From Virgifigura deserti (GTDB taxonomy: Bacteria; Pseudomonadota; Alphaproteobacteria; Dongiales; Dongiaceae), in the NCBI GenBank assembly GCA_003576685.1, contig QOZR01000003.1, positions 1 through 64,000 of the forward strand: DNA of 64,000 nucleotides, given 5' to 3'. This document shows, piece after piece, positions 10,082 through 43,875 of this stretch. A model generated the notes under the pieces. That model was given only the letters and a program-made list of their open reading frames with translations, had not been told where the DNA came from and did no database searches. The stretch's first letter is position 1. The number at the start of each line of letters is the position of its first letter. The position numbers and the translations under genes are program-made.

Positions 10082-11173
10082 TTACTGCGCGAAATAGGCC
10101 TTCGTCTCGTCCCAGATCTCCTGATAGGTCCGCCGCTCCTCGTCGCTCAGCGGCGCCATCCATTGCAGCCGCTTCATCGCCGCTTCGTCGCCATGGATCT
10201 CGCGCCCCATATCGCCCTCCGGCAGAGCGGCATTGGCCTCGCGGTTGGCCGAGGCCGGCGCTCCCACCTCGGTCGCCCAGCGGACATAGAACTCCGGGTC
10301 GATCAGGAAATTAATGAAGGCGTGCGCGGCCTCTGGATTCGGCGCATCCGTCGCAATCGACAGACCGTCGAACCAGCCGATGGCGCCCTCCTCCGGCACG
10401 ACATAGCCGACCGGCAAATCGAAGTTCGTCGCGCTGCGCGCCGCCGATCCGCTCCAATAGGTCGAGACGTCGAACTGGCCGGCGGCGAAGAGCTTGTTCC
10501 ATTCGTCTTCGGACGACCAGAAGGCCCTGATCTGCGGCTTGAGCGCGCGCAGCTTCTCGCGCACCTTGTCGAGATCCTCAGGATGGTTCATGTCCTGCCC
10601 CGTGGCGATCGCGGCAAAGCTCACCGCCTCCACGGCGTCATCGCGCCAGCCAACCCGACCGGCGAACTCCAGGTCCCAGAAGACCTGGATCGACTCCGGT
10701 GCCGTCTCCAGATCCTCCGTGTTGTAGGCGACGGCGGTCATGCCCCAAACCCAGGCGATGGCGTAAAGCTTGTCGTCGATGATGAACCGCGGCGAATCCC
10801 GCAACAGCGGCGACAAATCCTCGAAATTCTCGATTTTGCCCGAATCGACCGGCTGGATCAGACCTTCCTTCGCGGCCTGCTCTGTAAAGGCGCTGTTGAT
10901 CAGCACGACGTCGTAGGTGCCGGGACTGGTCCGCAGCTTCGTCAGCATCTCCTGCTCGGAGTTGAAGTAGTCGTGGATCACCTCGACCCCGGTCCGCTCC
11001 TCGAAGAGCTCGAGGGCCCAGGCCTCGTCGGTGCCATAACCCTGCCAGTTCAGCACATTCAGTTCCTCGGCCGCCGCGGCACCGATCATTGGCCCGATGG
11101 CGAGTGCCGCCGCCAAGACGAACCCTACCCCCGCCTTCGCCGCCGCGCCCACGATACCTCGCCGCTCGATCAT
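10082..11173 (-). CDS. potD-like: Periplasmic substrate-binding protein, spermidine/putrescine (PotD/PotF) type
   Basis: 363 residues. It has a cleavable signal peptide with a twin-arginine-like start (MIERRG) and a hydrophobic stretch ending AAAAEELN. The mature protein begins LNVLNWQGY, typical of PotD/PotF relatives; EVIHDYFNSEQEMLTKL and YDVVLINS follow. It is the first gene of the seven-gene leftward operon (11173 to 3348). The downstream glycosidase, kinase and amidohydrolase make a polyamine conjugate or other amine-containing glycoside as plausible as free polyamine. Confidence 0.92.
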   Translation of the reverse strand: MIERRGIVGAAAKAGVGFVLAAALAIGPMIGAAAAEELNVLNWQGYGTDEAWALELFEERTGVEVIHDYFNSEQEMLTKLRTSPGTYDVVLINSAFTEQAAKEGLIQPVDSGKIENFEDLSPLLRDSPRFIIDDKLYAIAWVWGMTAVAYNTEDLETAPESIQVFWDLEFAGRVGWRDDAVEAVSFAAIATGQDMNHPEDLDKVREKLRALKPQIRAFWSSEDEWNKLFAAGQFDVSTYWSGSAARSATNFDLPVGYVVPEEGAIGWFDGLSIATDAPNPEAAHAFINFLIDPEFYVRWATEVGAPASANREANAALPEGDMGREIHGDEAAMKRLQWMAPLSDEERRTYQEIWDETKAYFAQ

Positions 11174-22062: not shown

Positions 22063-22968
22063 CTAAGGGGCTGCCAGCCGCGACACCCAATCAACAAAGG
22101 CGCGTGTTTGCGGCGATTTAGCTTGGGCTGCCAACCACACCGCATAGTACCCATAGCGACTCTGAACCGACTCTTTGAGAGGCCTGACCAGCCTACCGTC
22201 GTCTAATTCCCGATCCACCAAACCTTTCCAGCCGAGAGCCAGACCCTGACCCTTCTTTGCCGCCTCGATGAGCAGCGGATAGTTATTGATGGTCAGGCCG
22301 TGTTGGTTGGCCGGAAACGCCACGCCGTTCTCGGTCAGCCACATGCGCCAGTTCATCCACTCCCAGTGATCGTCCTCGAGGTGTAGGAGAGTATGCTCTA
22401 TCAAATCGCTCGGCACTTCGAGCGGTGATGCTGATGCAAGATAGCTCGGCGAGCAGACAGGATAGACCTCCTCCACGAAAAGCAATGCGGATTGGCGGCC
22501 TGGCCAGACGCCCTCGCCATGGACCAGCGCCACGTCGACGCTATCCGCCAGGCAGTCCGACTCCAGGTCCGAGACGACAACGCGTACTGAAACGCCCGCG
22601 TTAACTTCATAGAAGTGGCCAAGCCGGGGCATCAGCCACATCCAGGCCATCGATTGGTCCGCAGCGACGGTAAGACGGTCGCGGCCGCGGGTCATGCGCA
22701 GTTCCTGGGTCGCGGTGGCCAAGTGTTGAAGTGCCGCTGCCACGGTGTGCTGGTATTCGCGCCCGAGATGCGTGAGCTGCACCGCTTTGTGCGTTCGGTT
22801 GAAGAGAGCCAGACCCAGGCTGTCCTCCAAGTTCCGGACCTGCTGGCTCACCGCGGCTTGGGAAACGTTCAGTTCCTGGGCAGCGGCGGAGAATGAGGAC
22901 AGGCGAGCGGCGGCCTCAAAAGCGACGAGCGCATGCAGTGGCGGCAGCGATTTGCGGAATTCCTTCAT
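22063..22968 (-). CDS. LysR-family transcriptional regulator, GcvA-like
   Basis: 301 residues. The N-terminal winged HTH is LPPLHALVAFEAAARLSSFSAAAQELNVSQAAVSQQVRNLE, whose PLHALVAFEAAARL start is typical of GcvA-like members. A periplasmic-binding-protein-like effector domain follows from about residue 95. It is divergent from the Rieske oxygenase operon (starts 305 bases apart), the classic arrangement for a LysR activator of an adjacent catabolic operon. The inducer is probably the operon substrate. A palindrome overlaps its own start codon. Confidence 0.9.
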   Translation of the reverse strand: MKEFRKSLPPLHALVAFEAAARLSSFSAAAQELNVSQAAVSQQVRNLEDSLGLALFNRTHKAVQLTHLGREYQHTVAAALQHLATATQELRMTRGRDRLTVAADQSMAWMWLMPRLGHFYEVNAGVSVRVVVSDLESDCLADSVDVALVHGEGVWPGRQSALLFVEEVYPVCSPSYLASASPLEVPSDLIEHTLLHLEDDHWEWMNWRMWLTENGVAFPANQHGLTINNYPLLIEAAKKGQGLALGWKGLVDRELDDGRLVRPLKESVQSRYGYYAVWLAAQAKSPQTRAFVDWVSRLAAP

Positions 22969-22981
22969 AAGCCAAGCTTAT
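22967..22981. promoter_or_regulatory. Palindrome ATAAGC-CAA-GCTTAT at the LysR gene start
   Basis: Perfect 6-bp dyad (22967-22972 and 22976-22981) overlapping the regulator start codon. Its A/T-rich ends and 15-base size are compatible with a LysR-type half-operator and negative autoregulation. Confidence 0.35.
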
Positions 22982-23273
22982 CCAAATGACCAAGGACAAA
23001 TCGTTTGAGAAGCATAGCTCCTCAAAATACCATCCCTATTCGGAATTGCAGCATCTCTTCGATAATAAAAACTATTGGAAGAGATCACTGCCGAGGCTGA
23101 CGTAGGAGGCCCCGTGATGATTTGCCGGAAGCTTGACCATTGCCGTTCGAGATCTTGCCGGATTTCCAATTCGACGGCGACGATGGCCGCAGACCGACGA
23201 AAGTGGCGTGGGCAGCGCCCGACCGGCTGATCATATCGCCCCTTTTCCCTTGATACATTCGGAGGTCCACAGG

Positions 23274-24410
23274 ATGAGCCTACCTCTTTTGCAGGCCCAA
23301 TCAGGCGATAATCCCTTTCGTGACGAGCCCGGCCGCTCTTTTACGATGCCCTCCCGCTTCTATCTGGATCCGGAGATCTACGAGCGCGAGAAGGACGCCA
23401 TCTTCTACCGCAGCTGGTGGTTTGCCGGCCACAAGAGCCAACTCGACAAACCTGGCCGCTTCATCACCACGCAGATCCATGAACAGAGTATCGTCATCAC
23501 CAGAACGACAGACGGTGCGCTGAACGCCTTCTACAATGTCTGCCAGCACCGAGGACACGAGTTGGTTAGCGGCAGCGGTAGCGCCCGGCTGCTCGTCTGC
23601 CCCTACCATGCTTGGTCCTATGATCTCGACGGGAAACTGAGAAACGCGCCGAACACGGCGGACATGGTCGACTTCGACAAGTGCGCCTTCTCCTTGAAGT
23701 CTGTACAGGTCGAAGAGTTCTGCGGCTTCGTCTTCGTCAATCTCGACCCCGACGCCTTACCGTTCAGAGAGCAGGCTGGTGACTTGGAGGCGGAGCTGAG
23801 ACACTACTGCCCGAGCATAGACAACATGGTCTATGCCCATCGGCACAGCTATGACGTGGCGAGTAACTGGAAGGTCCTGATCGATAATTTCCTTGAGTGC
23901 TACCACTGCGGCGTGGCGCACAAGGACTTCGTCAATCTCGTCGACATGAAAACCTATCAGTCGCAGACCTGCGGCATCTACTCCAGCCATACCTCCCAGG
24001 GCGCCAGCGTCAACAGTTCGGCCTTCAAATTCGAAAAGGGCGACGTCGAGTTCGGCTATGCCGCCTGGTTCGTATGGCCGAACCTGACGATTTGGGTTTA
24101 TCCCGGCGAGGCCAACGTCTCCGCGCTGCAGATAATTCCATCCGGGCCCGACCGGACCATCGAGCACCTGGATTGGTTCCTCCCGACTTCCGAGCCGACG
24201 AAGCAACTGAAGGACGCCATGGTCTACATGGACGAGGTCCTGCAGCCTGAGGACATCGGTCTTTGCGAGAGCGTTCAGCGGGGGTTGCGATCAAAGGGTT
24301 ACAATCAGGGACGCTTCGTCATCGACAACGATCTGAGCGAGCTCAGCGAGCACGCTGTCCACCATTTCCAGAAGATGGTCGTCGACGCACTTGATGCGCG
24401 TCTTGGCTGA
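23274..24410 (+). CDS. cntA-like: Rieske non-haem iron oxygenase, carnitine/quaternary-amine oxygenase (CntA/YeaW-like)
   Basis: 378 residues from the ATG at 23274, with GGAGG eight bases upstream. Rieske [2Fe-2S] ligands are Cys90, His92, Cys109 and His112 (CQHRGH ... CPYHAW). The mononuclear iron ligands are His211, His216 and probably Asp327 (PEDIGLCESV). The residue three before the first His is Glu208 (DNFLECYHCGVAH). Ring hydroxylases have Asp there, while CntA, GbcA and other quaternary-amine oxygenases have Glu. The C-terminal ESVQRGLRSKGY...GRFVIDND...SEHAVHHFQ also follows CntA/YeaW. The likely substrate is carnitine, a betaine or a related N-methylated compound; the exact one is inferred. 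Confidence 0.85.
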   Translation: MSLPLLQAQSGDNPFRDEPGRSFTMPSRFYLDPEIYEREKDAIFYRSWWFAGHKSQLDKPGRFITTQIHEQSIVITRTTDGALNAFYNVCQHRGHELVSGSGSARLLVCPYHAWSYDLDGKLRNAPNTADMVDFDKCAFSLKSVQVEEFCGFVFVNLDPDALPFREQAGDLEAELRHYCPSIDNMVYAHRHSYDVASNWKVLIDNFLECYHCGVAHKDFVNLVDMKTYQSQTCGIYSSHTSQGASVNSSAFKFEKGDVEFGYAAWFVWPNLTIWVYPGEANVSALQIIPSGPDRTIEHLDWFLPTSEPTKQLKDAMVYMDEVLQPEDIGLCESVQRGLRSKGYNQGRFVIDNDLSELSEHAVHHFQKMVVDALDARLG

Positions 24411-24429
24411 AGAGCTGAGGAAAAAGAAC

Positions 24430-25827
24430 ATGACCCAGCGTGTGGCAATTATCGGAGCCGGCCCCAGCGGCCTATCGCAGCTTCGTGCTTTCCAACAAGC
24501 CAGGGCCAAGGGAGCCGAGATCCCGGAGATCGTCTGTTTCGAGAAGCAGAACGACTGGGGCGGGCTCTGGCATTACACCTGGAGGACCGGCCTCGACGCC
24601 CACGGCGAGGCCGTGCATAGCAGCATGTACCGCTATCTCTGGTCGAACGGCCCGAAGGAGTGCCTGGAGTACGGTGACTATTCTTTCGATCAGCACTTCG
24701 GCCGGCCCATTCCGTCATTTCCTCCGCGCGAGGTCCTGCACAACTACATCACGACGCGAGCGAAGGTCAGCGGCATACGCGATTGGGTGCGTTTCGAAAC
24801 CGCGGTGCGATGGGTCGGCTTCGACGAGGCCGAGCGACGCTTTACGGTGGTGAGCGAAGACCTGCCGACGCGGCGCGTCACCAGGGAAACGTTCGACTCC
24901 GTGATCGTCGCCTCGGGCCACTATTCGGTCCCCAATGCGCCGTCCTTCCCAGGTATCGAGCAGTTCCCCGGCCGGGTGCTGCACGCGCATGATTTTCGCA
25001 ACGCCATGGAGTTCGCAGGCAGGGACATCCTGATCGTCGGCGCCAGCTATTCGGCCGAGGATATCGGGCTGCAGTGTCACAAGTACGGCGCCCGGTCGGT
25101 AACGATGAGCTACCGCACCAAGGCAATGGGCTTCACCTGGCCCGAGAGCATGGAAGAGCGCCCGCTGCTCACCCGGATCGACGGCTCGACCGTTCACTTC
25201 GGCGACGGCTCCCACCGGGACGTGGATGCCATCATTCTCTGCACCGGCTACCTCCACCGCTTTCCCTTTCTGGCGGAGGATCTGAAGCTGCACACGCACA
25301 ACCGGCTCTATCCCCCGGGCCTCTACAAGGGCGTGGTCTGGGAGGCCAACCCGCAGCTGCTTTTCGTCGGCATGCAGGACCAGTTCTACACCTTCTCCAT
25401 GTTCGACCTGCAGGCCTGGACGGCTCGCGACGTGGTGATGGGTCGTATCTCGCTGCCCGACACCAACAGGATGGCGGCGCATTCGGCGCGCTGGGTGGAG
25501 CGTGAGGAAGCGCTCGTGGGACCCGAGCAGCAAATCGACTTCCAGACAGATTACTGCAAGGAGCTGGCGGCCGCTGTCGACTACCCGGCCATCGACTTCG
25601 ATCTCGTGGCGGCGAACTTCAAGGAGTGGGAGCACGAGAAGGTGCGCGATATCACAGGCTACCGTAACACGGCCTACCGTTCTGCGGTTACCGGGACGAT
25701 GGCTTCGATCCACCATACGACTTGGCTGGAGGCCACGGACGACTCCATGAAGACCTTCCTGGGCGACGGCGAGCGGCGGTCTGTTCAACTCCCGACGCGA
25801 TCGGTTGCCGCTGCCGCCCGCCTGTAG
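24430..25827 (+). CDS. tmm: Flavin-containing monooxygenase of the trimethylamine monooxygenase (Tmm) family
   Basis: 465 residues from the ATG at 24430, 19 bases after the oxygenase stop. FAD motif GAGPSG (9-14), FMO identifying motif FPGRVLHAHDF, and NADPH motif VGASYSAED are present. The long conserved stretches WGGLWHYTWRTGLD, HSSMYRYLWSNGPKECLEYGDY and CTGYLHRFPFL are those of bacterial Tmm enzymes. Tmm oxidises trimethylamine to its N-oxide with NADPH and O2. The C-terminal part (TGTMASIHHTTWLEATDDSM) also matches. Co-transcribed with the Rieske oxygenase. Confidence 0.9.
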   Translation: MTQRVAIIGAGPSGLSQLRAFQQARAKGAEIPEIVCFEKQNDWGGLWHYTWRTGLDAHGEAVHSSMYRYLWSNGPKECLEYGDYSFDQHFGRPIPSFPPREVLHNYITTRAKVSGIRDWVRFETAVRWVGFDEAERRFTVVSEDLPTRRVTRETFDSVIVASGHYSVPNAPSFPGIEQFPGRVLHAHDFRNAMEFAGRDILIVGASYSAEDIGLQCHKYGARSVTMSYRTKAMGFTWPESMEERPLLTRIDGSTVHFGDGSHRDVDAIILCTGYLHRFPFLAEDLKLHTHNRLYPPGLYKGVVWEANPQLLFVGMQDQFYTFSMFDLQAWTARDVVMGRISLPDTNRMAAHSARWVEREEALVGPEQQIDFQTDYCKELAAAVDYPAIDFDLVAANFKEWEHEKVRDITGYRNTAYRSAVTGTMASIHHTTWLEATDDSMKTFLGDGERRSVQLPTRSVAAAARL

Positions 25828-25870
25828 AGCCTGATCCGATCAGGTCGACCCAACCTGATCGGATCAGGCT
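25828..25870. repeat. Nested perfect inverted repeat between the FMO and reductase genes
   Basis: AGCCTGATCCGATCAGGT (25828-25845) and ACCTGATCGGATCAGGCT (25853-25870) form a perfect 18-bp stem with a 7-base loop. Each arm is itself a palindrome of the form CCTGATC-N-GATCAGG. It could be an intra-operon terminator, an mRNA-stabilising hairpin or a tandem protein-binding site. Confidence 0.8.
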
Positions 25871-25936
25871 CAAGGTCGGTCGACATGAAGGCCGTGAATT
25901 TCGACTGAACCAATACGGGAGGCGAGAGGAGCGCTC

Positions 25937-26896
25937 TTGTCCTTGAGGGTTTACGTCACCAAGGTCACCGACGAAGCAGAGAGCATCCGCTCTTACGAGC
26001 TGATCGCGGCCGAGGGCACCCCTCTCCCGGCTTTCACCGCGGGCGCCCATATCGTTGTCAACCTGCCGAACGGAATGGCGCGTCAGTACTCGCTGACCGG
26101 CGACGCCGGCGATCGCCAGCGCTACCTCATTGCGGTACAGCGAGAGACCGAAGGAAGGGGTGGGTCACGCTGGATCTATGACAACCTGCGCGAAGGCGAC
26201 AGCCTCGAGATCGGTGACCCGGTCAATCACTTCACCCTCGCCGAGGAGGCCGAACGGCACCTTCTGATCGCCGGCGGCATCGGCATTACCCCGATCCTCG
26301 CGATGGCCAGCAGCCTCGAGCGGGCAGGCGCCGACTACCACCTCGTCTACTGCGCACGCAGACCGGCACGGACCGCGTTCCGCAATCGCCTCTTGTCGCC
26401 AGCCTTCCAGGATCGCGTACGCTTTGTGTACGACGAGGCAGAGGAGGCCCAACGCCTCGATCTTGCCGCGATTCTGGGTGCGCAACCGCCCGGAACCCAT
26501 GCCTATTGCTGTGGTCCGGCCGGCATGATCCGCGCCTTCCGCCAAGCGACCAACCATTGGCCCAGTGAGCGCGTCCACTTCGAGCTCTTTGCTGCCGACC
26601 CGGAAGCGCCTCCTCCGCCGGCCGAAGATCAGGCCTTCACGGTGGAGATTGCCAGCACGGGACAGCGTTTCGAAATCCCGCCTGGCAGAAGCATTCTTGC
26701 TGTCCTCTCCGGTCACGGACTCGAGGTGCCAAAGCTCTGCGAGTCCGGCTACTGCGGCTCCTGCCTCACCGGCGTACTGGAGGGCGTGCCTGAGCACCGC
26801 GACAGCGTGCAGAGCGATGCCGAGAGGGCAGCCGGAACCTACATCGCGCTCTGTTGCTCGCGAGCCAGGAGCGACCTCCTGGTCTTGGACCTCTGA
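25937..26896 (+). CDS. cntB-like: Oxygenase reductase: flavin/NAD(P)H domain plus C-terminal plant-type ferredoxin (CntB-like)
   Basis: 319 residues with a TTG start at 25937 preceded by GAGAGGA at good spacing; a second TTG two codons later is possible. Domain order is a flavin-binding barrel (RQYSLTG at about 50), an NAD(P)H domain (LIAGGIGITPILAM, YCCGPAGM), and a C-terminal [2Fe-2S] ferredoxin (CESGYCGSC...ALCC). This is the phthalate dioxygenase reductase arrangement shared by CntB and GbcB. It supplies electrons to the Rieske oxygenase two genes upstream. The palindrome at 25828-25870 lies in the 109-base gap. Confidence 0.88.
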   Translation: MSLRVYVTKVTDEAESIRSYELIAAEGTPLPAFTAGAHIVVNLPNGMARQYSLTGDAGDRQRYLIAVQRETEGRGGSRWIYDNLREGDSLEIGDPVNHFTLAEEAERHLLIAGGIGITPILAMASSLERAGADYHLVYCARRPARTAFRNRLLSPAFQDRVRFVYDEAEEAQRLDLAAILGAQPPGTHAYCCGPAGMIRAFRQATNHWPSERVHFELFAADPEAPPPPAEDQAFTVEIASTGQRFEIPPGRSILAVLSGHGLEVPKLCESGYCGSCLTGVLEGVPEHRDSVQSDAERAAGTYIALCCSRARSDLLVLDL

Positions 26897-27471: not shown

Positions 27472-27651
27472 ATGGGACCAAATGATGAACCGGCTTACAG
27501 AGACGTCGACGTTGATCCCGAGGAATACATCACGCAGGCCCTGAAAGCAGGCACGCTCGTTGGCACGGGACACACCACGAAGGATCTGTGGATGCTGTTC
27601 CTTCTCGGCGTCGTCTGCCCTGCCCTGATTCTCGCGTGGGGGTGGATGTAA
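27472..27651 (+). CDS. 59-residue single-pass membrane protein coupled to the NCS1 permease
   Basis: The ATG at 27472 is preceded by GGGAGGTGA at ideal spacing. The product starts MGPNDEPAYRDVDVDPEEYI, an acidic hydrophilic part of about 37 residues, then has one membrane helix (WMLFLLGVVCPALILAWGWM). Its TAA stop shares one base with the ATG of the permease (27651), so the two are translationally coupled. A role as a small accessory subunit of the permease is inferred; no known family was recognised. Confidence 0.8.
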   Translation: MGPNDEPAYRDVDVDPEEYITQALKAGTLVGTGHTTKDLWMLFLLGVVCPALILAWGWM

Positions 27652-29090
27652 TGGGCACCGCCAAAATGAAAGGACCACCCGAGGCGAGGATCGGCAGCCT
27701 TCCTTTGCCGCTTTCCGAACGCACATGGAGCGGCTGGCTGGTCGCGGGCGTCTGTGCGACCGCGGGGATCGGGACCTGGTCGTTCGTCGTAGGCGGGTTT
27801 ACCGCCTACTACGTTCCGGCAGGTGAAGGAACGGCAACAATGATCGCGGGCGCCCTGATCGGCCAGTTGCTGGTCACGCTTTCTCAGGTTCCGCCAGTGG
27901 CGAAGTACGGAATTGAGACCCTGGCGTCGACCAAGCCGCAACTCGGCATCCGCGGCTCCTACTTTGCCCTGATCGTGCAGTACGCCACCCTCATCGGCTG
28001 GAACTGCGTGCTCATGATATTCTTCGGCAGAGCCGTAGCGTCAGTCCTCATCGAAACCGGTATCATAGGGCCTGTCCAGGCAGATGCGGTCGCGATCGCG
28101 TCGTCGCTGATCGGCGCCGGGGTCGTCTTTTGGCTCCTCACGGGCGGCTCCACGAGCTTGAAATATGCGGGGTCGATCATCGCCGTCGGAGTCTCGATCA
28201 TCGGCCTCTGGATGTATGGCATGCTCTTCAATGCCTACGGCCTTGACGCGATAGCGGCGGCCGCGCCACTCGCGCCGATCGAGAACGATCGGCTCATGAA
28301 CTTCACCGTTGGAACCGAACTGCTGATCCTGTCGACACTGGGATGGTGGGCCTACATGGGCAGCTTGTTCCGCATGCTGAACTGCGTCAGCAAGGGAGTG
28401 GTGCCGTCCATGCTGTCGCTCGGGTTCGGCTGGGCGGCCGTTGGCCTGATCGGCCTCTATTCTGCCCTCGTGGTCGGCGAACCGGACCCGACAGTCTGGA
28501 TGCTCCAAATCGCGGGACCTGTCGCCGGCGTTTGCGTTCTGGTCTTTGTCGCCCTGGCCAACATTGGTTCAGCGCTTGTCGGTGCCCATGCGGCTACGCT
28601 GGGCATCGGTCAGATCCCCGCGGTCGCGCGACGCTTCGGCTGGAAGATGAAGGCCTTCATCGTGCTGATCCCAATGCTGTTGGCGCTCCTGTTCTTTCCG
28701 GGACCATTCTACGACAACATCGGAACGTTCATGGCTTTCATCGGCATCATCATTGCGCCGATTTGCGGTGTGCAGATCGTCGACTGGTTCGTATTCAAGC
28801 GGCTCGACGATCTGGATCTGGTTTCGCTCTATCAGCACGATTCACGGTCACGCTACTGGTATCTGTATGGCTTCAACCCCGCAGGGATCGCGGCACTCGT
28901 CATCGGCGCAGTCGTCTATATGCTTCTGCTGGACCCATTGACGTTCGTGCCCAACAGTACGTTGTTGAGGTATCTCACAGCCTCGATACCGTCAGCTCTT
29001 GCCGGCGCTGTGACCTACTGGGGTCTCACCAAGGCGCTTCGAATGGATGCCCGGGAAGGCACCTACCGGCTAAGAGAGCGGGACGTTTGA
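27651..29090 (+). CDS. NCS1-family permease (cytosine/purine/allantoin/hydantoin type)
   Basis: 479 residues from the ATG at 27651; upstream in-frame codons overlap the small membrane protein. About 12 membrane helices are seen. The N-terminal PLSERTWSGWLVAGVCATAGIGTWSFVVGG is the start region of NCS1 transporters, and SLKYAGSIIAVGVSIIGLWM and GVQIVDWFVFKRL also fit. NCS1 proteins symport nucleobases, hydantoins, allantoin or thiamine with H+ or Na+. Here it follows the amine-oxidation operon, so an N-methylated heterocycle is conceivable; substrate unassigned. Confidence 0.88.
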   Translation: MGTAKMKGPPEARIGSLPLPLSERTWSGWLVAGVCATAGIGTWSFVVGGFTAYYVPAGEGTATMIAGALIGQLLVTLSQVPPVAKYGIETLASTKPQLGIRGSYFALIVQYATLIGWNCVLMIFFGRAVASVLIETGIIGPVQADAVAIASSLIGAGVVFWLLTGGSTSLKYAGSIIAVGVSIIGLWMYGMLFNAYGLDAIAAAAPLAPIENDRLMNFTVGTELLILSTLGWWAYMGSLFRMLNCVSKGVVPSMLSLGFGWAAVGLIGLYSALVVGEPDPTVWMLQIAGPVAGVCVLVFVALANIGSALVGAHAATLGIGQIPAVARRFGWKMKAFIVLIPMLLALLFFPGPFYDNIGTFMAFIGIIIAPICGVQIVDWFVFKRLDDLDLVSLYQHDSRSRYWYLYGFNPAGIAALVIGAVVYMLLLDPLTFVPNSTLLRYLTASIPSALAGAVTYWGLTKALRMDAREGTYRLRERDV

Positions 29091-36592: not shown

Positions 36593-37528
36593 TCAGAACG
36601 CCACCTGATCGCCGCCCTTGAGGGCGAGCATTCGCCGCGCCTCCGTCGGCGTCGCGATCTCCAGCGACAGGTCTGCGAGAATTCCGCGGATCTTCCGAAC
36701 CTGCTCGGCATTGCTCTTCGCGAGCTGTCCCTTGCCGAGATAGAGGCTGTCCTCGAGCCCCACCCGGACATGGCCGCCCATGATCGCGCCCGTCGTGACG
36801 AAGCTCATCTGGTGACGGCCGGCCGCAAGAATCGACCAGTGATACTGATCCCCGAACAGCTTGTCGGCGATCCGGCGCATATGCATCAGGTTCTCCGGGT
36901 CGGCGCCAATGCCGCCCAGGATGCCGAAGATCGTCTGGACGAACAGCGGCGGCTTGACCAGCCCACGGTCGAGGAAATGCGCCAGCGTGTAGAGATGGCC
37001 GACATCATAGCATTCGAACTCGAAGCGCGTGCCGCAACCCTCGCCCAACATCTTCAGGATGGATTCGATATCCTTGAAAGTGTTGCGGAAGATGAAGTCG
37101 CGCGAATTCTCGAGAAAGCCCGGCTCCCAATCATATTTCCAGGACTGGTATTTTGCCGCCATCGGAAACAGCCCGAAGTTCATCGAGCCCATGTTCAGCG
37201 AGCACATCTCCGGCTTCGCCTGCAGCGGCGCCGCGAGGCGGTCTTCGACCGTCATGTTCTGGCCGCCGCCGGTGGTGATGTTGACGACCGCATCCGTCGC
37301 CTGCTTGATCCGCGGAAGGAATTGCTGAAACACAGCCGGATCGGGCGTCGGCGCGCCGGTCTCGGGATCGCGCGCATGAAGATGCAGAATCGCCGCGCCC
37401 GCCTCAGCGGCGCCGATCGCGTTCTCGGCGATCTCGTCCGGCGTGATCGGCAGATGATCCGACATCGTCGGCGTGTGAATTGATCCGGTCACCGCGCAGG
37501 TGATGATGACTTTGCGGCTCTCGGCCAT
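36593..37528 (-). CDS. Beta-keto acid cleavage enzyme (BKACE, DUF849 family)
   Basis: 311 residues. The family's metal-binding HLHARD at about residue 48-53, ITTGGG, EFECYDVGHLYTLAHFLDRG and the WSILAAGRHQM segments are present. BKACE enzymes use acetyl-CoA or another CoA ester to cleave beta-keto acids, for example 3-keto-5-aminohexanoate or dehydrocarnitine, to acetoacetate plus a CoA thioester. The subgroup cannot be set by eye. First gene of a two-gene unit with the kinase-like gene. Confidence 0.9.
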   Translation of the reverse strand: MAESRKVIITCAVTGSIHTPTMSDHLPITPDEIAENAIGAAEAGAAILHLHARDPETGAPTPDPAVFQQFLPRIKQATDAVVNITTGGGQNMTVEDRLAAPLQAKPEMCSLNMGSMNFGLFPMAAKYQSWKYDWEPGFLENSRDFIFRNTFKDIESILKMLGEGCGTRFEFECYDVGHLYTLAHFLDRGLVKPPLFVQTIFGILGGIGADPENLMHMRRIADKLFGDQYHWSILAAGRHQMSFVTTGAIMGGHVRVGLEDSLYLGKGQLAKSNAEQVRKIRGILADLSLEIATPTEARRMLALKGGDQVAF

Positions 37529-40985: not shown

Positions 40986-42761
40986 ATGATGCGCGCCCGC
41001 CAGAATCATCGCTTCGATCGCCACAACGCCCCCTCCCTGCGCAACTGGGGACCGAAATCGCGCCCGCCAAGCGGCGACGCGCTGCCGACGAACGTTCTTC
41101 TGGAATGTGGCTGGGGTCGGCTGATCTTCGCCCATACCTTCGATTCCGCGGAGAAGATCGCTGAAACCCTGCGGGAGGAGCGGCCGGACAAGCGTGACAT
41201 CGCGCTCTATCTCCGCGACCCTCACGTCGTCCTGGCAGCCGCGCCCCAGGAGCTCTTCCTCGACCCATCCCACACCTATCGGCTCTGGATGTCGCACTAT
41301 CGCAGCGCCCGCGCCCGCCCCCGGGGGTTCATGGTAAGGCGGCTGCGCACCAAGCGGGATGCGCAAGCCTGCGAGCGCATCTGCCTGCAGCGGCGGATGG
41401 TGCCCGCGGATGTCGAGTTCCTCCTGGCGAATCGGAAGTCGCGAACACTCACGCATCTGGTGGCCGTCGACGAGGCGACCGATGAAGTGATCGGCACGGT
41501 CACCGGAGTCGATCACGCGGAAGCGTTCGGCGACCCGGAGAACGGCAGCAGCCTCTGGTGCCTCGCGGTGGACCCGCAAGCGCCGCAGGCGCGGATCGGC
41601 GAGGCGCTGGTCCGCACACTGGCGGAGCATTACCAAGCCCGGGGGCGCGACTTCATGGACCTGTCGGTCCTCCACGACAACGAGCAGGCTATTGCCCTTT
41701 ACGAAAAGCTCGGCTTCCAGCGCGTTCCGGTGTTCTGCCTGAAAACCAAGAACGCCTTCAACGAGCACCTTTTCACCGGCCCGCAACCGGACGCGCAACT
41801 CAATCCCTATGCAAGCATCATCGTCGAGGAAGCACGCCGACGCGGGATCGCCGTTTCCGTGCTCGACGCCGAAGCCGGCTATTTCCGCCTGACCCTCGGC
41901 GGCCGATCCATCGTCTGCCGGGAAGCCTTGAGCGAATTGACCACCGCCATCGCAATGAGCCGATGCGACGACAAGGCCGTAACACGCCGTGTGCTAGCCG
42001 AGGCGGGCCTCACCGTTCCGGCGCAGATTGAGGCAATCGGGAAGAAGGAGAACGAGGCATTCCTGAAGCGTTACGGTCGCGTCGTGGTGAAGCCGGCATC
42101 CGGCGAGCAAGGCGTCGGCATCGCCGTGGACGTCCGCACTCCCGCCGAGCTGAAGGCCGCGGTGGACCGCGCGCGCCGGCATGACGGCCGCGTCCTGATC
42201 GAGGAGCTGATCGAGGGCCAAGACCTGCGGGTCATCGTCATCGACTTCAAGGTCGTCGCCGCCGCCATCCGGAGGCCGGCGCAGATCAGGGGAAACGGGC
42301 GGGACACAGTGCGCGATTTGATCGCGACACAGAGCCGACGGCGCGCTGCCGCGACGGCCGGCGAAAGCGCGATCCCTATGGACGAAGAGACCAAGCGCTG
42401 CATCCGCGCGGCTGGGCATGACATGGATGCCGTCCTTCCCGCAGGCACCGTCGTGCCGGTCCGCAGGACGGCGAACCTGCATACCGGGGGCACGATTCAC
42501 GACGTGACCGGAAAGCTGCATCCGACGCTCGCAACCGTGGCGGAGGAGGCGGCGCGCGCGCTCGACATTCCCGTGGTCGGCCTCGACCTGATAGTGCCGC
42601 GGGCCGACGCGGAGAGCTATGCGATCATCGAGGCGAACGAACGGCCTGGTCTCGCCAATCACGAACCACAGCCGACCGCCGAACGGTTCATCGACCTTCT
42701 ATTTCCTCAGACAACTCCCACGGCGGCCGTGCCGCGGCCAGAGTCTTCGACGGACAAGTGA
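40986..42761 (+). CDS. ngg: N-acetylglutaminylglutamine synthetase (GNAT plus ATP-grasp)
   Basis: 591 residues (ATG at 40986 or 40989). A GNAT acetyltransferase domain spans about 115-255 (LWCLAVDPQAPQARIGEALV, YEKLGFQRVPVF). An ATP-grasp ligase fills 290-590 (VVKPASGEQGVGIAV, RVLIEELIEGQDLRVIVID, AIIEANERPGLANHEP). This GNAT/ATP-grasp fusion is the known architecture of Ngg, which acetylates glutamine and joins it to a second glutamine. It is between asnO and the M42 peptidase. Osmotic or stationary-phase control is expected. Confidence 0.92.
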   Translation: MMRARQNHRFDRHNAPSLRNWGPKSRPPSGDALPTNVLLECGWGRLIFAHTFDSAEKIAETLREERPDKRDIALYLRDPHVVLAAAPQELFLDPSHTYRLWMSHYRSARARPRGFMVRRLRTKRDAQACERICLQRRMVPADVEFLLANRKSRTLTHLVAVDEATDEVIGTVTGVDHAEAFGDPENGSSLWCLAVDPQAPQARIGEALVRTLAEHYQARGRDFMDLSVLHDNEQAIALYEKLGFQRVPVFCLKTKNAFNEHLFTGPQPDAQLNPYASIIVEEARRRGIAVSVLDAEAGYFRLTLGGRSIVCREALSELTTAIAMSRCDDKAVTRRVLAEAGLTVPAQIEAIGKKENEAFLKRYGRVVVKPASGEQGVGIAVDVRTPAELKAAVDRARRHDGRVLIEELIEGQDLRVIVIDFKVVAAAIRRPAQIRGNGRDTVRDLIATQSRRRAAATAGESAIPMDEETKRCIRAAGHDMDAVLPAGTVVPVRRTANLHTGGTIHDVTGKLHPTLATVAEEAARALDIPVVGLDLIVPRADAESYAIIEANERPGLANHEPQPTAERFIDLLFPQTTPTAAVPRPESSTDK

Positions 42762-42765
42762 CAGA

Positions 42766-43875
42766 ATGCGCAAACTCGCGATCGATATGGACTACGTACA
42801 GGATCTCCTGCTTCGCCTCCTCAAGATTCCCAGCCCAACCGGCTATACGGACGAGATTGTGCATTTCGCCGGGCAGGAACTGGAACGTCTCGATATTCCG
42901 TACGAACTGACGCGCCGAGGTGCGATCCGTGCCGACCTGTCCGGCGACCAGCAGAGCCCGGACCGCGCCGTCGTTGCCCACCTGGACACCCTCGGCGCCA
43001 TGGTCAAGCAGCTCAAGCCGAACGGACGGCTCGCAGTCGTTCCGATCGGGCATTGGTCGGCTCGGTTCGCCGAGGGCGCGCGAGTGACCATCTTCACCGA
43101 CGAGACCAGCCGCAGGGGCACCATCCTGCCGCTGAAGGCCTCCGGCCATACCTTCGGCGCGGAAATCGATACCCAACCGGTCGCCTGGGACAATCTCGAG
43201 ATTCGCGTTGACGAGACCGCCCGGAACGAAGAGGACCTCGTTCGCATGGGTTTCCACATCGGCGACTACGTCGCGATCGATCCGCTTCCGGAGATCTGCG
43301 ACAGCGGGTTCATCAATTCCCGGCATCTCGACGACAAGGCCGGTGTCGCCTGCCTTTTCGGCGCGGCCAAGGCAATCATGGAAAGCGGCGCCCGCCTCGC
43401 GCTGGACTGCCATTTGCTGCTGACGATCTCGGAGGAAACCGGGTCCGGCGCCTCGGCGGTCCTCCATGGCGATGTCGCCGAGATGGTCGCGATCGACAAC
43501 GGGGCCCAGGCACTGGGGCAGAACTCGAAGGAGTTCGGCGTCACGGTATCGATGATGGACGCGAGCGGCCCCTTCGACTATCACCTGACGCATAAGCTGC
43601 TGCGGCTATGCCGCGATTTCGACATCTCCCATCAGCGCGACATTTTCCGTTACTACCGGACCGACGCGGCATCGGCCCTCGAAGCCGGCAACGACATCCG
43701 CACCGCGCTACTCTGCTTCGGCATTGATTCCTCGCATGGCTACGAGCGCGTCCATCTCGACGCCCTGAAGAGCCTGAGCGAACTCCTTGCGCTTTACATG
43801 CAGAGCGGCCCGACGTCGCCGCGCGACCGTTACAATCTGTCGTCCCTGGAGAACTTCCCCCGCCAGCCGACTTAA
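42766..43875 (+). CDS. NAGGN-system-associated M42-family peptidase
   Basis: 369 residues from the ATG at 42766, four bases after ngg. Metal-site segments of the M42/M20 fold are seen: VVAHLDTLGAMV (His72), SRHLDDKAGVACL, ISEETGSGAS with the catalytic Glu, and VAIDNGAQ. The C-terminal CFGIDSSHGYERVHLDALKSL also fits. The third gene of NAGGN operons is typically such a peptidase and presumably hydrolyses NAGGN or a related dipeptide when stress ends. Its stop overlaps that of the convergent YihY gene. Confidence 0.92.
   Translation: MRKLAIDMDYVQDLLLRLLKIPSPTGYTDEIVHFAGQELERLDIPYELTRRGAIRADLSGDQQSPDRAVVAHLDTLGAMVKQLKPNGRLAVVPIGHWSARFAEGARVTIFTDETSRRGTILPLKASGHTFGAEIDTQPVAWDNLEIRVDETARNEEDLVRMGFHIGDYVAIDPLPEICDSGFINSRHLDDKAGVACLFGAAKAIMESGARLALDCHLLLTISEETGSGASAVLHGDVAEMVAIDNGAQALGQNSKEFGVTVSMMDASGPFDYHLTHKLLRLCRDFDISHQRDIFRYYRTDAASALEAGNDIRTALLCFGIDSSHGYERVHLDALKSLSELLALYMQSGPTSPRDRYNLSSLENFPRQPT

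Follow-up and report, generated by a model that had tools for sequence, protein, structure and literature searches.

Trimethylamine and its N-oxide play a part in the marine nitrogen cycle and bear on human health, and the question raised by the locus described here is whether a single bacterial operon can encode both the release of this amine from a quaternary ammonium compound and its conversion to the N-oxide. The locus lies in a stretch of 64,000 nucleotides from Virgifigura deserti (Alphaproteobacteria; contig QOZR01000003.1, positions 1 to 64,000), below called the window; contig C23 of the genome (5.1 Mb, 34 contigs) begins with it. An original prediction from the sequence had placed an operon at 23274-26896, encoding a CntA-like Rieske oxygenase, a monooxygenase of the trimethylamine monooxygenase (Tmm) type and a CntB-like reductase, and had supposed that the cleavage of quaternary amines may be coupled directly to N-oxide formation. 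The three genes are indeed present as intact open reading frames (ORFs) on one strand:

23274-24410, plus strand: alpha subunit of a Rieske oxygenase, group Va, 378 amino acids (Pfam, solved relatives, tree, alignment to CntA)
24430-25827, plus strand: trimethylamine monooxygenase (Tmm, FMO family), 465 amino acids (NF058570, solved relatives)
25937-26896, plus strand: reductase of the PDR/CntB type with a C-terminal 2Fe-2S ferredoxin, 319 amino acids, TTG start (Pfam, NCBIfam, 2pia, homologue in locus L030)

The gap between the oxygenase stop codon and tmm is 19 bp, that between tmm and the reductase gene 109 bp, and the three genes presumably form one transcript. The combination of a Rieske oxygenase gene and tmm points to a single operon that would take a betaine all the way to trimethylamine N-oxide. 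We consider it probable that the operon encodes a two-component group Va oxygenase that would release trimethylamine from an imported trimethylammonium compound, after which Tmm would form the N-oxide. The proposed coupling has gained support from the group Va residues, the tree, the Tmm cut-off and the recurrent adjacency of Tmms that do not group together, and it stands better than at first reading; the label 'carnitine-type' is to be dropped.

Family and active site of the oxygenase

The oxygenase matches the Pfam families Rieske and Ring_hydroxyl_A. Its best relative of solved structure is CntA of A. baumannii (residues 15-370, E 5.4e-81); ring hydroxylases with solved structures score far below CntA, and no named ring hydroxylase is present in the tree. 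The window protein shares about 36-38% identity with plasmid-borne copies of CntA and YeaW. Alignment to CntA assigns C90, H92, C109 and H112 as ligands of the Rieske centre, H211, H216 and D327 as ligands of the mononuclear iron, Glu208 as the bridging residue (Glu205 in CntA) and C209/C212 as the cysteine pair, with Phe206 at the cation-pi position that is held by Tyr203 in CntA.

Rieske enzymes for quaternary ammonium compounds fall into group Va, with an aromatic residue at CntA position 203 and carnitine, choline or benzalkonium as substrates, and group Vb, with Asn at this position, to which the demethylases GbcA and Stc2 belong (PMC7948474; here and below, papers are quoted from the accessible part of their text). 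Tyr203 of CntA makes a cation-pi contact and the Y203F variant is active (PMC7948474), whereas the pair Cys206/Cys209 is crucial for activity (PMC10952381). Residues were counted in four groups with 72 rows in total (27 of the window clade, 35 of a sister clade, three of CntA/YeaW and seven group Vb proteins of the GbcA/Stc2 type). The Glu at CntA position 205 and both cysteines are common to all 72 rows, and position 203 is Phe in each of the 27 window-clade rows and Asn in all seven GbcA/Stc2-type rows. The original prediction had noted Glu208 where ring hydroxylases have Asp; the residue is present, but since all seven GbcA/Stc2-type rows have it too, Glu alone is no mark of CntA, and the discriminating residue is the aromatic one two positions earlier. 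Judged by these residues, the oxygenase belongs to group Va of the Rieske enzymes for quaternary ammonium compounds, and its substrate is presumably such a compound.

Besides Tyr203, the pocket of CntA contains Tyr225, Phe258, Asn270, Tyr295, Tyr315 and Phe319, and alanine mutants of binding-site residues have decreased or no activity (PMC7948474). Four of these six residues are replaced in the window oxygenase (Asn270 by W274, Tyr295 by L299, Tyr315 by M319 and Phe319 by L323), while Tyr225 is kept as Y228 and Phe258 has a similar residue, Y262. Throughout the 27 window-clade rows the Asn270 position is Trp, the Phe319 position is Leu and Tyr225 is kept; the Tyr295 position is Gln, Leu or Met, and the Tyr315 position varies. 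In the Rieske tree (107 rows, quick search with SH-aLRT supports and no bootstrap; L071, with 212 residues, left out), the window oxygenase belongs to a 27-row clade (SH-aLRT 99) that is apart from GbcA/Stc2, from CntA/YeaW and from the other Rieske proteins of its own genome, which has ten Rieske-oxygenase matches. CntA, YeaW and a Psychrobacter protein form a clade of their own (SH-aLRT 99). The predicted kinship thus holds as far as the protein falls with quaternary-ammonium Rieske enzymes, and fails for the CntA/YeaW clade itself.

A true carnitine or gamma-butyrobetaine monooxygenase, that is, the function of CntA in a new operon, would agree with CntA as the best solved relative, the CntB-like reductase and the catalytic residues in common. 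Such a function is nevertheless very unlikely in view of the separate clade, the replacement of the four pocket residues and the decreased or abolished activity of the CntA binding-site mutants (PMC7948474). In addition, the genes read in the neighbourhood of the operon include neither a BCCT transporter gene nor one for a semialdehyde dehydrogenase, a usual though not obligatory neighbour in cnt-type loci; three annotated loci of this type have both. The replaced pocket and the lack of a semialdehyde dehydrogenase gene among the neighbours that were read make carnitine an unlikely substrate, and orthology to CntA is ruled out by tree placement and pocket residues. A glycine betaine demethylase of the GbcA type was rejected as well, on the basis of the curated model NF058607 (172 bits, cut-off 670) and the Phe/Asn position.

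Elsewhere in the V. deserti genome, the Rieske gene at C33:117171 has ProXVW genes upstream and a reductase gene downstream, and its product has Asn at the cation-pi site and lacks the cysteine pair. In L033, a 101-residue stretch (10535-10837) with 71% identity to the window Rieske protein lies 1.4 kb after an intact copy and is perhaps a broken duplicate. The sister clade includes proteins about 45-47% identical to the window oxygenase on plasmids of Rhodobacteraceae, Mesorhizobium and Pseudomonas (L111-L114, L142). Their clusters contain a GlxA-type regulator, SDRs and 3-hydroxyacyl-CoA dehydrogenase, to which most add a 3-keto-5-aminohexanoate cleavage protein, an aminobutyraldehyde dehydrogenase, a choline-sulfatase or a ProXVW importer; they probably represent a separate carnitine/butyrobetaine-type pathway.

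The monooxygenase and the reductase

The assignment of the middle gene to the Tmm type is confirmed by the equivalog model for trimethylamine monooxygenase, NF058570 (773.1 bits, cut-off 675; residues 17-457 of the longer ORF from 24391), and the best solved relatives are bacterial FMO/Tmm chains, e.g. 6hns, 2xve and 5gsn. The genome has a second tmm at C1, directly after tdm (1273.5 bits). In the Tmm tree, a quick search with several open forks, the window Tmm pairs with that of L174 (support 99). The gene for this closest relative (L174/L191) adjoins glutamate-synthase-type genes and a glutamine-synthetase-III-type gene truncated where the contig ends (393 bits against a cut-off of 469.6), a neighbourhood that looks like a methylamine cluster.

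In the reductase, the predicted C-terminal ferredoxin is found as Fer2 (residues 237-310) after NAD_binding_1 (110-202), and among solved structures phthalate dioxygenase reductase (2pia) is the best match. The reductase that follows the Rieske gene in L030 is 53% identical to that of the window. The window reductase is likely to be the electron donor of the oxygenase.

Recurrence of the Rieske-tmm pair in other genomes

The locus was compared with the best 80 of 567 relatives from a genome scan and with the orthologues in G046 (= L129) and G323. The window clade comprises 24 of these 80 loci plus G046 and G323, with flanks of up to about 8-9 kb that are shorter in several. A Rieske-tmm tandem is present in three further genomes (L036, L047 and G046), and in L038 the two genes are 6 kb apart with other genes between them, which was counted as near but not as tandem. 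Excluding the window's own genome, the Rieske gene is near tmm in 4 of 26 clade genomes and in none of the 49 used as controls (Fisher p 0.012); among the 56 loci from other Rieske clades there is no such case either. The controls were 50 of these 56 loci; the six that were left out (L071, L087, L089, L091, L102 and L103) have no Tmm match in their flanks, and L087, L089 and L091, whose contig names begin like those of clade loci, are presumably from the genomes of these loci. A match in L094 (75 residues, 37%) was not counted as Tmm. A large gene that appears by eye to be protein-kinase-like follows tmm in two metagenome-assembled genomes (MAGs) of Granulosicoccaceae (L036:3202-6159 and L038:2330-5446).

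The Tmms encoded next to Rieske genes do not group in the Tmm tree. The L047 protein has as its partner a third Tmm encoded in the same genome (98), the proteins of L036 and L038 belong to a six-row group of Granulosicoccaceae Tmms (100), and the G046 protein has no settled place within a set of 19 rows; the pairing therefore most simply arose several times. The genome of L047, like that of V. deserti, has a tdm-adjacent tmm copy besides the Rieske-adjacent one, and a dedicated Tmm on the Rieske side in addition to a standard tdm-tmm pair is what would be expected if the Rieske enzyme makes trimethylamine.

In G046, a genome of 1.41 Mb with 35.5% GC over the retrieved stretch, the tandem is flanked by Tdm (1162.9 bits, cut-off 1100), a ProXVW importer, proteins of the sarcosine-oxidase alpha and beta type (soxA/soxB-type) that score above their cut-offs, and glutamate-synthase-type genes. 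Within its family an orthologue at E 1e-120 was found in 1 of 52 genomes searched, many of them incomplete, this one being G046 itself. A GcvT-like gene adjoins the Rieske gene at L129:10285-11469, at L042:9143-10333 and at L106:9175-10302, the last of which is outside the window clade.

The complete order Rieske-Tmm-reductase was found in none of the other loci examined, so that of the arrangement originally noted it is the Rieske-tmm pair that recurs, and the three-gene order was seen in V. deserti only. Besides the window's own genome, one of the 16 further genomes searched in the family has an orthologue at E 1e-135 or better (the same-order and same-family searches covered the same 17 genomes). 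The class sample gave 3 of 384 others, and in the phylum sample of 398 only the window genome has one; with up to five and up to four candidates scored per genome, respectively, orthologues may be missed in these two samples. The possibility that oxygenase and Tmm genes are chance neighbours without shared function might be raised on the grounds that the exact order is seen in one genome only and that the Rieske gene is not near tmm in most clade loci. We find it hardly credible, considering the short gap and the single strand in the window and the nearness in four other genomes, for which the rough chance expectation, based on rounded genome sizes and the full 17.4-kb neighbourhood, is 0.087 (P for four or more, 2e-6).

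Observations that weigh against a coupled pathway

Several observations speak against the release of trimethylamine and its transfer to Tmm. In 22 of the 26 other clade genomes the Rieske gene has no tmm nearby (flanks short in several), and ten of the 26, most of them MAGs and perhaps incomplete, have no Tmm match at E 1e-100. These ten include L030, which has a complete set of importer, Rieske oxygenase and reductase. Co-occurrence at the genome level is weak (16 of 26 as compared to 19 of 49, p 0.088) and was dropped as evidence; it is uninformative because Tmm is common in these bacteria, which leaves adjacency as the informative measure. The window Tmm is on a long branch of its tree and has a lower score than the other Tmm of the genome (773 versus 861 bits), so that a drift in substrate is possible. 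A gene for the second product was not identified in the operon, and a known activity was found for no member of the 27-row clade. Finally, other group Va enzymes catalyse different reactions: choline monooxygenase carries out a hydroxylation from which no trimethylamine is released.

In an alternative explanation, the Rieske enzyme hydroxylates or demethylates a quaternary substrate without releasing trimethylamine, in the manner of choline monooxygenase or glycine betaine demethylase, and Tmm, as part of a scavenging regulon, handles trimethylamine from outside. Choline monooxygenases are also in group Va (PMC7948474), some clade genomes are without a Tmm match, and the LysR-type protein encoded beside the operon reaches 280 bits with a choline-sulfate regulator model, although below its cut-off. 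We regard this explanation as rather unlikely: the demethylases in the set have Asn where the window enzyme has Phe206, trimethylamine from outside could be handled by the tdm-tmm pair that the genome has anyway, and recurrent tmm genes that do not group, beside a Rieske gene, are hard to explain without a shared intermediate.

The intermediate might also be of another class, if the substrate were a sulfonium compound such as dimethylsulfoniopropionate (DMSP), yielding dimethylsulfide for oxidation by Tmm to dimethyl sulfoxide, or an N-alkylated betaine yielding another tertiary amine. The Tmm of a SAR11 strain does oxidise dimethylsulfide (PMC8498191), the pocket is unlike that of CntA, the window Tmm is divergent, and a GcvT/DmdA-like gene is directly beside the Rieske gene in L129 and L042. 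However, the GcvT-like protein of L129 is far below the cut-offs for Tdm and for DMSP demethylase (for the latter 167.1 versus 410 bits), and the pair in L129 is surrounded by Tdm and methylamine-type genes. A substrate of this kind thus seems improbable.

Regulator, intergenic repeat and a lost importer

The operon is accompanied by the following features:

22063-22968, minus strand: LysR-family regulator, divergent, 301 amino acids (Pfam LysR_substrate and HTH_1)
22969-23273, no strand: intergenic region between the LysR and oxygenase genes, 305 bp (sequence inspected)
25827-25871, plus strand: inverted repeat with perfect 18-bp arms (25827-25844 and 25854-25871) and a 9-nt loop
27019-27359, plus strand: remnant of a decayed gene for a ProV-type (betaine/proline/choline) ABC ATPase, in two pieces that differ in frame, the middle part being lost
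27472-27651, plus strand: ORF of 59 codons for what may be a small membrane protein, with a TAATG overlap to the permease start
27651-29090, plus strand: NCS1-family permease (PF02133)

The LysR protein is likely to be the regulator of the operon. It exceeds the cut-off of the NCBIfam GcvA subfamily (296.8 bits, cut-off 288) and stays below that of the choline-sulfate utilisation regulator TIGR03418 (280.4 bits, cut-off 324.8). A divergent LysR gene with a product 47-61% identical to it adjoins the Rieske gene in L038, L042, L043, L044, L045 and L047; in L030 the related gene, within the same range of identity, is separated from the Rieske gene by one gene (ProX).

The predicted RNA fold of the region between tmm and the reductase gene (25820-25935) has a z-score of -7.52, and there is no T run after the inverted repeat, which is possibly a processing or attenuation hairpin. 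A widespread mobile repeat was ruled out at this site, since the 15-mer palindrome at its core occurs at only four places in the genome, two of them at this repeat.

Directly downstream of the reductase gene, the segment 27150-27359 matches residues 205-274 of the ProV protein of L030 (44% identity, 68.2 bits) and 27019-27147 matches residues 45-87 (36.6 bits), with no match for residues 88-204 and no intact reading frame. The longer piece is found by each of the seven ProV queries used, at 53 to 70 bits, and the shorter one by six of them; in 500 single-base shuffles, which preserve base composition but not dinucleotides, the best score was 27.3 bits for the L030 query and 29.3 bits for any query. 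In Limibaculum sp. NKW23 (L030), apparently an isolate, the related divergent LysR gene faces intact genes for ProX, the Rieske oxygenase, the reductase, ProV and ProW. The gene set of L030 and the ProV remnant of the window link the oxygenase to the import of a compound of the betaine type. A ProU-type betaine importer was probably part of the ancestral operon, and the decayed ProV gene would be its last trace in the window.

The NCS1 permease is possibly the present-day importer, its link to the operon being positional only. As a conserved partner it was rejected, since no match to it was found in loci L021-L110 at E 1e-12 or 1e-8, and plasmid relatives are at most 36.4% identical among the matches listed (12 of 15). 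The 59-codon ORF in front of it has no Pfam match. Partners farther away were sought by comparing ten further window genes to NCBIfam and ten to Pfam, some of them to both. About 10 kb downstream, at 36593-37528 on the minus strand, there is a gene for a beta-keto acid cleavage enzyme (558.5 bits with NF053538, cut-off 430), and 40986-43875 on the plus strand encodes N-acetylglutaminylglutamine synthetase and its M42 peptidase, an osmoprotectant system.

Proposed pathway and substrate

In the pathway that we propose, electrons would pass from a reduced nicotinamide cofactor via the reductase to the Rieske centre and from there, via Glu208, to the iron of the neighbouring subunit, by analogy with CntA (PMC7948474). 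Phe206 would hold the ammonium group of the substrate, and Trp274 would shape a pocket that is different from, and perhaps smaller than, that of CntA. Hydroxylation of the carbon next to the nitrogen would be followed by collapse to trimethylamine and a carbonyl compound (aldehyde or keto), and Tmm would convert trimethylamine with NADPH and O2 to the N-oxide. The N-oxide may be passed on to Tdm, encoded elsewhere in the genome, or be kept as an osmolyte. The sequences themselves show the gene content, the group Va residues, the clade placement, the Tmm family membership, the ProV remnant, the recurrent pairing with tmm and the presence of tdm; from these we infer C-N cleavage rather than demethylation, trimethylamine as the product and its transfer to Tmm. 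Preventing the loss of free trimethylamine, as the original prediction had it, may be the purpose of the coupling.

As to the substrate, a second product that needs no dedicated dehydrogenase would fit best with a small betaine such as glycine betaine. We tentatively put forward a small betaine, but neither carnitine nor gamma-butyrobetaine; first in line is glycine betaine, which would give trimethylamine and glyoxylate; this is a possibility and hardly a firm expectation. It is a speculative extension, and a doubtful one, that the proteins with invariant Phe206 and Trp274 may form a new aerobic oxygenase subfamily that cleaves glycine betaine or some other common small betaine directly to trimethylamine and in several lineages is wired to Tmm, with betaine going to the N-oxide and a C2 acid as the net result. 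The known betaine routes are anaerobic reduction and aerobic demethylation. If the proposal is true, an O2-dependent route from betaine to trimethylamine would stand beside these two.

Relation to known systems and implications

The one Rieske enzyme known to us that releases trimethylamine is CntA/CntB (YeaW/YeaX). It acts on carnitine, gamma-butyrobetaine and, in vitro, two analogues (PMC7948474). The window system resembles it in being two-component, with a PDR-type reductase and the group Va residues (Glu205, Cys206/Cys209 and an aromatic residue at 203). It differs in that the oxygenase is about 38% identical, belongs to another clade and has the carnitine pocket replaced, in that tmm lies between the two subunit genes, and in that no semialdehyde dehydrogenase or BCCT gene was read alongside. 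GbcA/GbcB and Stc2 (group Vb) are likewise quaternary-ammonium Rieske oxygenases, with the cysteine pair and the Glu in common, but these have Asn where the window enzyme has Phe and demethylate, and the score of the window protein is far from the GbcA cut-off. For choline monooxygenase and OxyBAC, which are also group Va enzymes, we know of no Tmm partner. They are likened to the window oxygenase by description and not by sequence, through the aromatic residue at the cation-pi site, which in OxyBAC is Phe (PMC7948474).

The window Tmm resembles other Tmms in passing the curated model and in having its nearest tree relative in a methylamine-type cluster. Tdm, TmoXVW, Dmm and GmaS are the usual partners of Tmm; the window Tmm, in contrast, is on a long branch, is a second copy and has a Rieske oxygenase gene rather than tdm as its neighbour. 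Among the matches listed for literature on Tmm, a coverage that most subscription papers fall outside, none was found to describe a Rieske-tmm operon, nor does the accessible text of PMC5537630, PMC12478193, PMC6200775 and PMC10653893. Two papers come nearest to it: a conversion of carnitine via trimethylamine to trimethylamine N-oxide was inferred across community members from a sponge metatranscriptome (PMC9999580), and a carnitine-degrading Psychrobacter strain has a tmm-like gene elsewhere, according to the accessible part of a plasmid paper (PMC6514802).

Surveys of environmental data that detect cntA by similarity could count members of the window clade as carnitine oxygenases. A distinct oxygenase clade that in several lineages is found beside Tmm may represent an unrecognised aerobic source of trimethylamine, with the N-oxide being made in the same cell.

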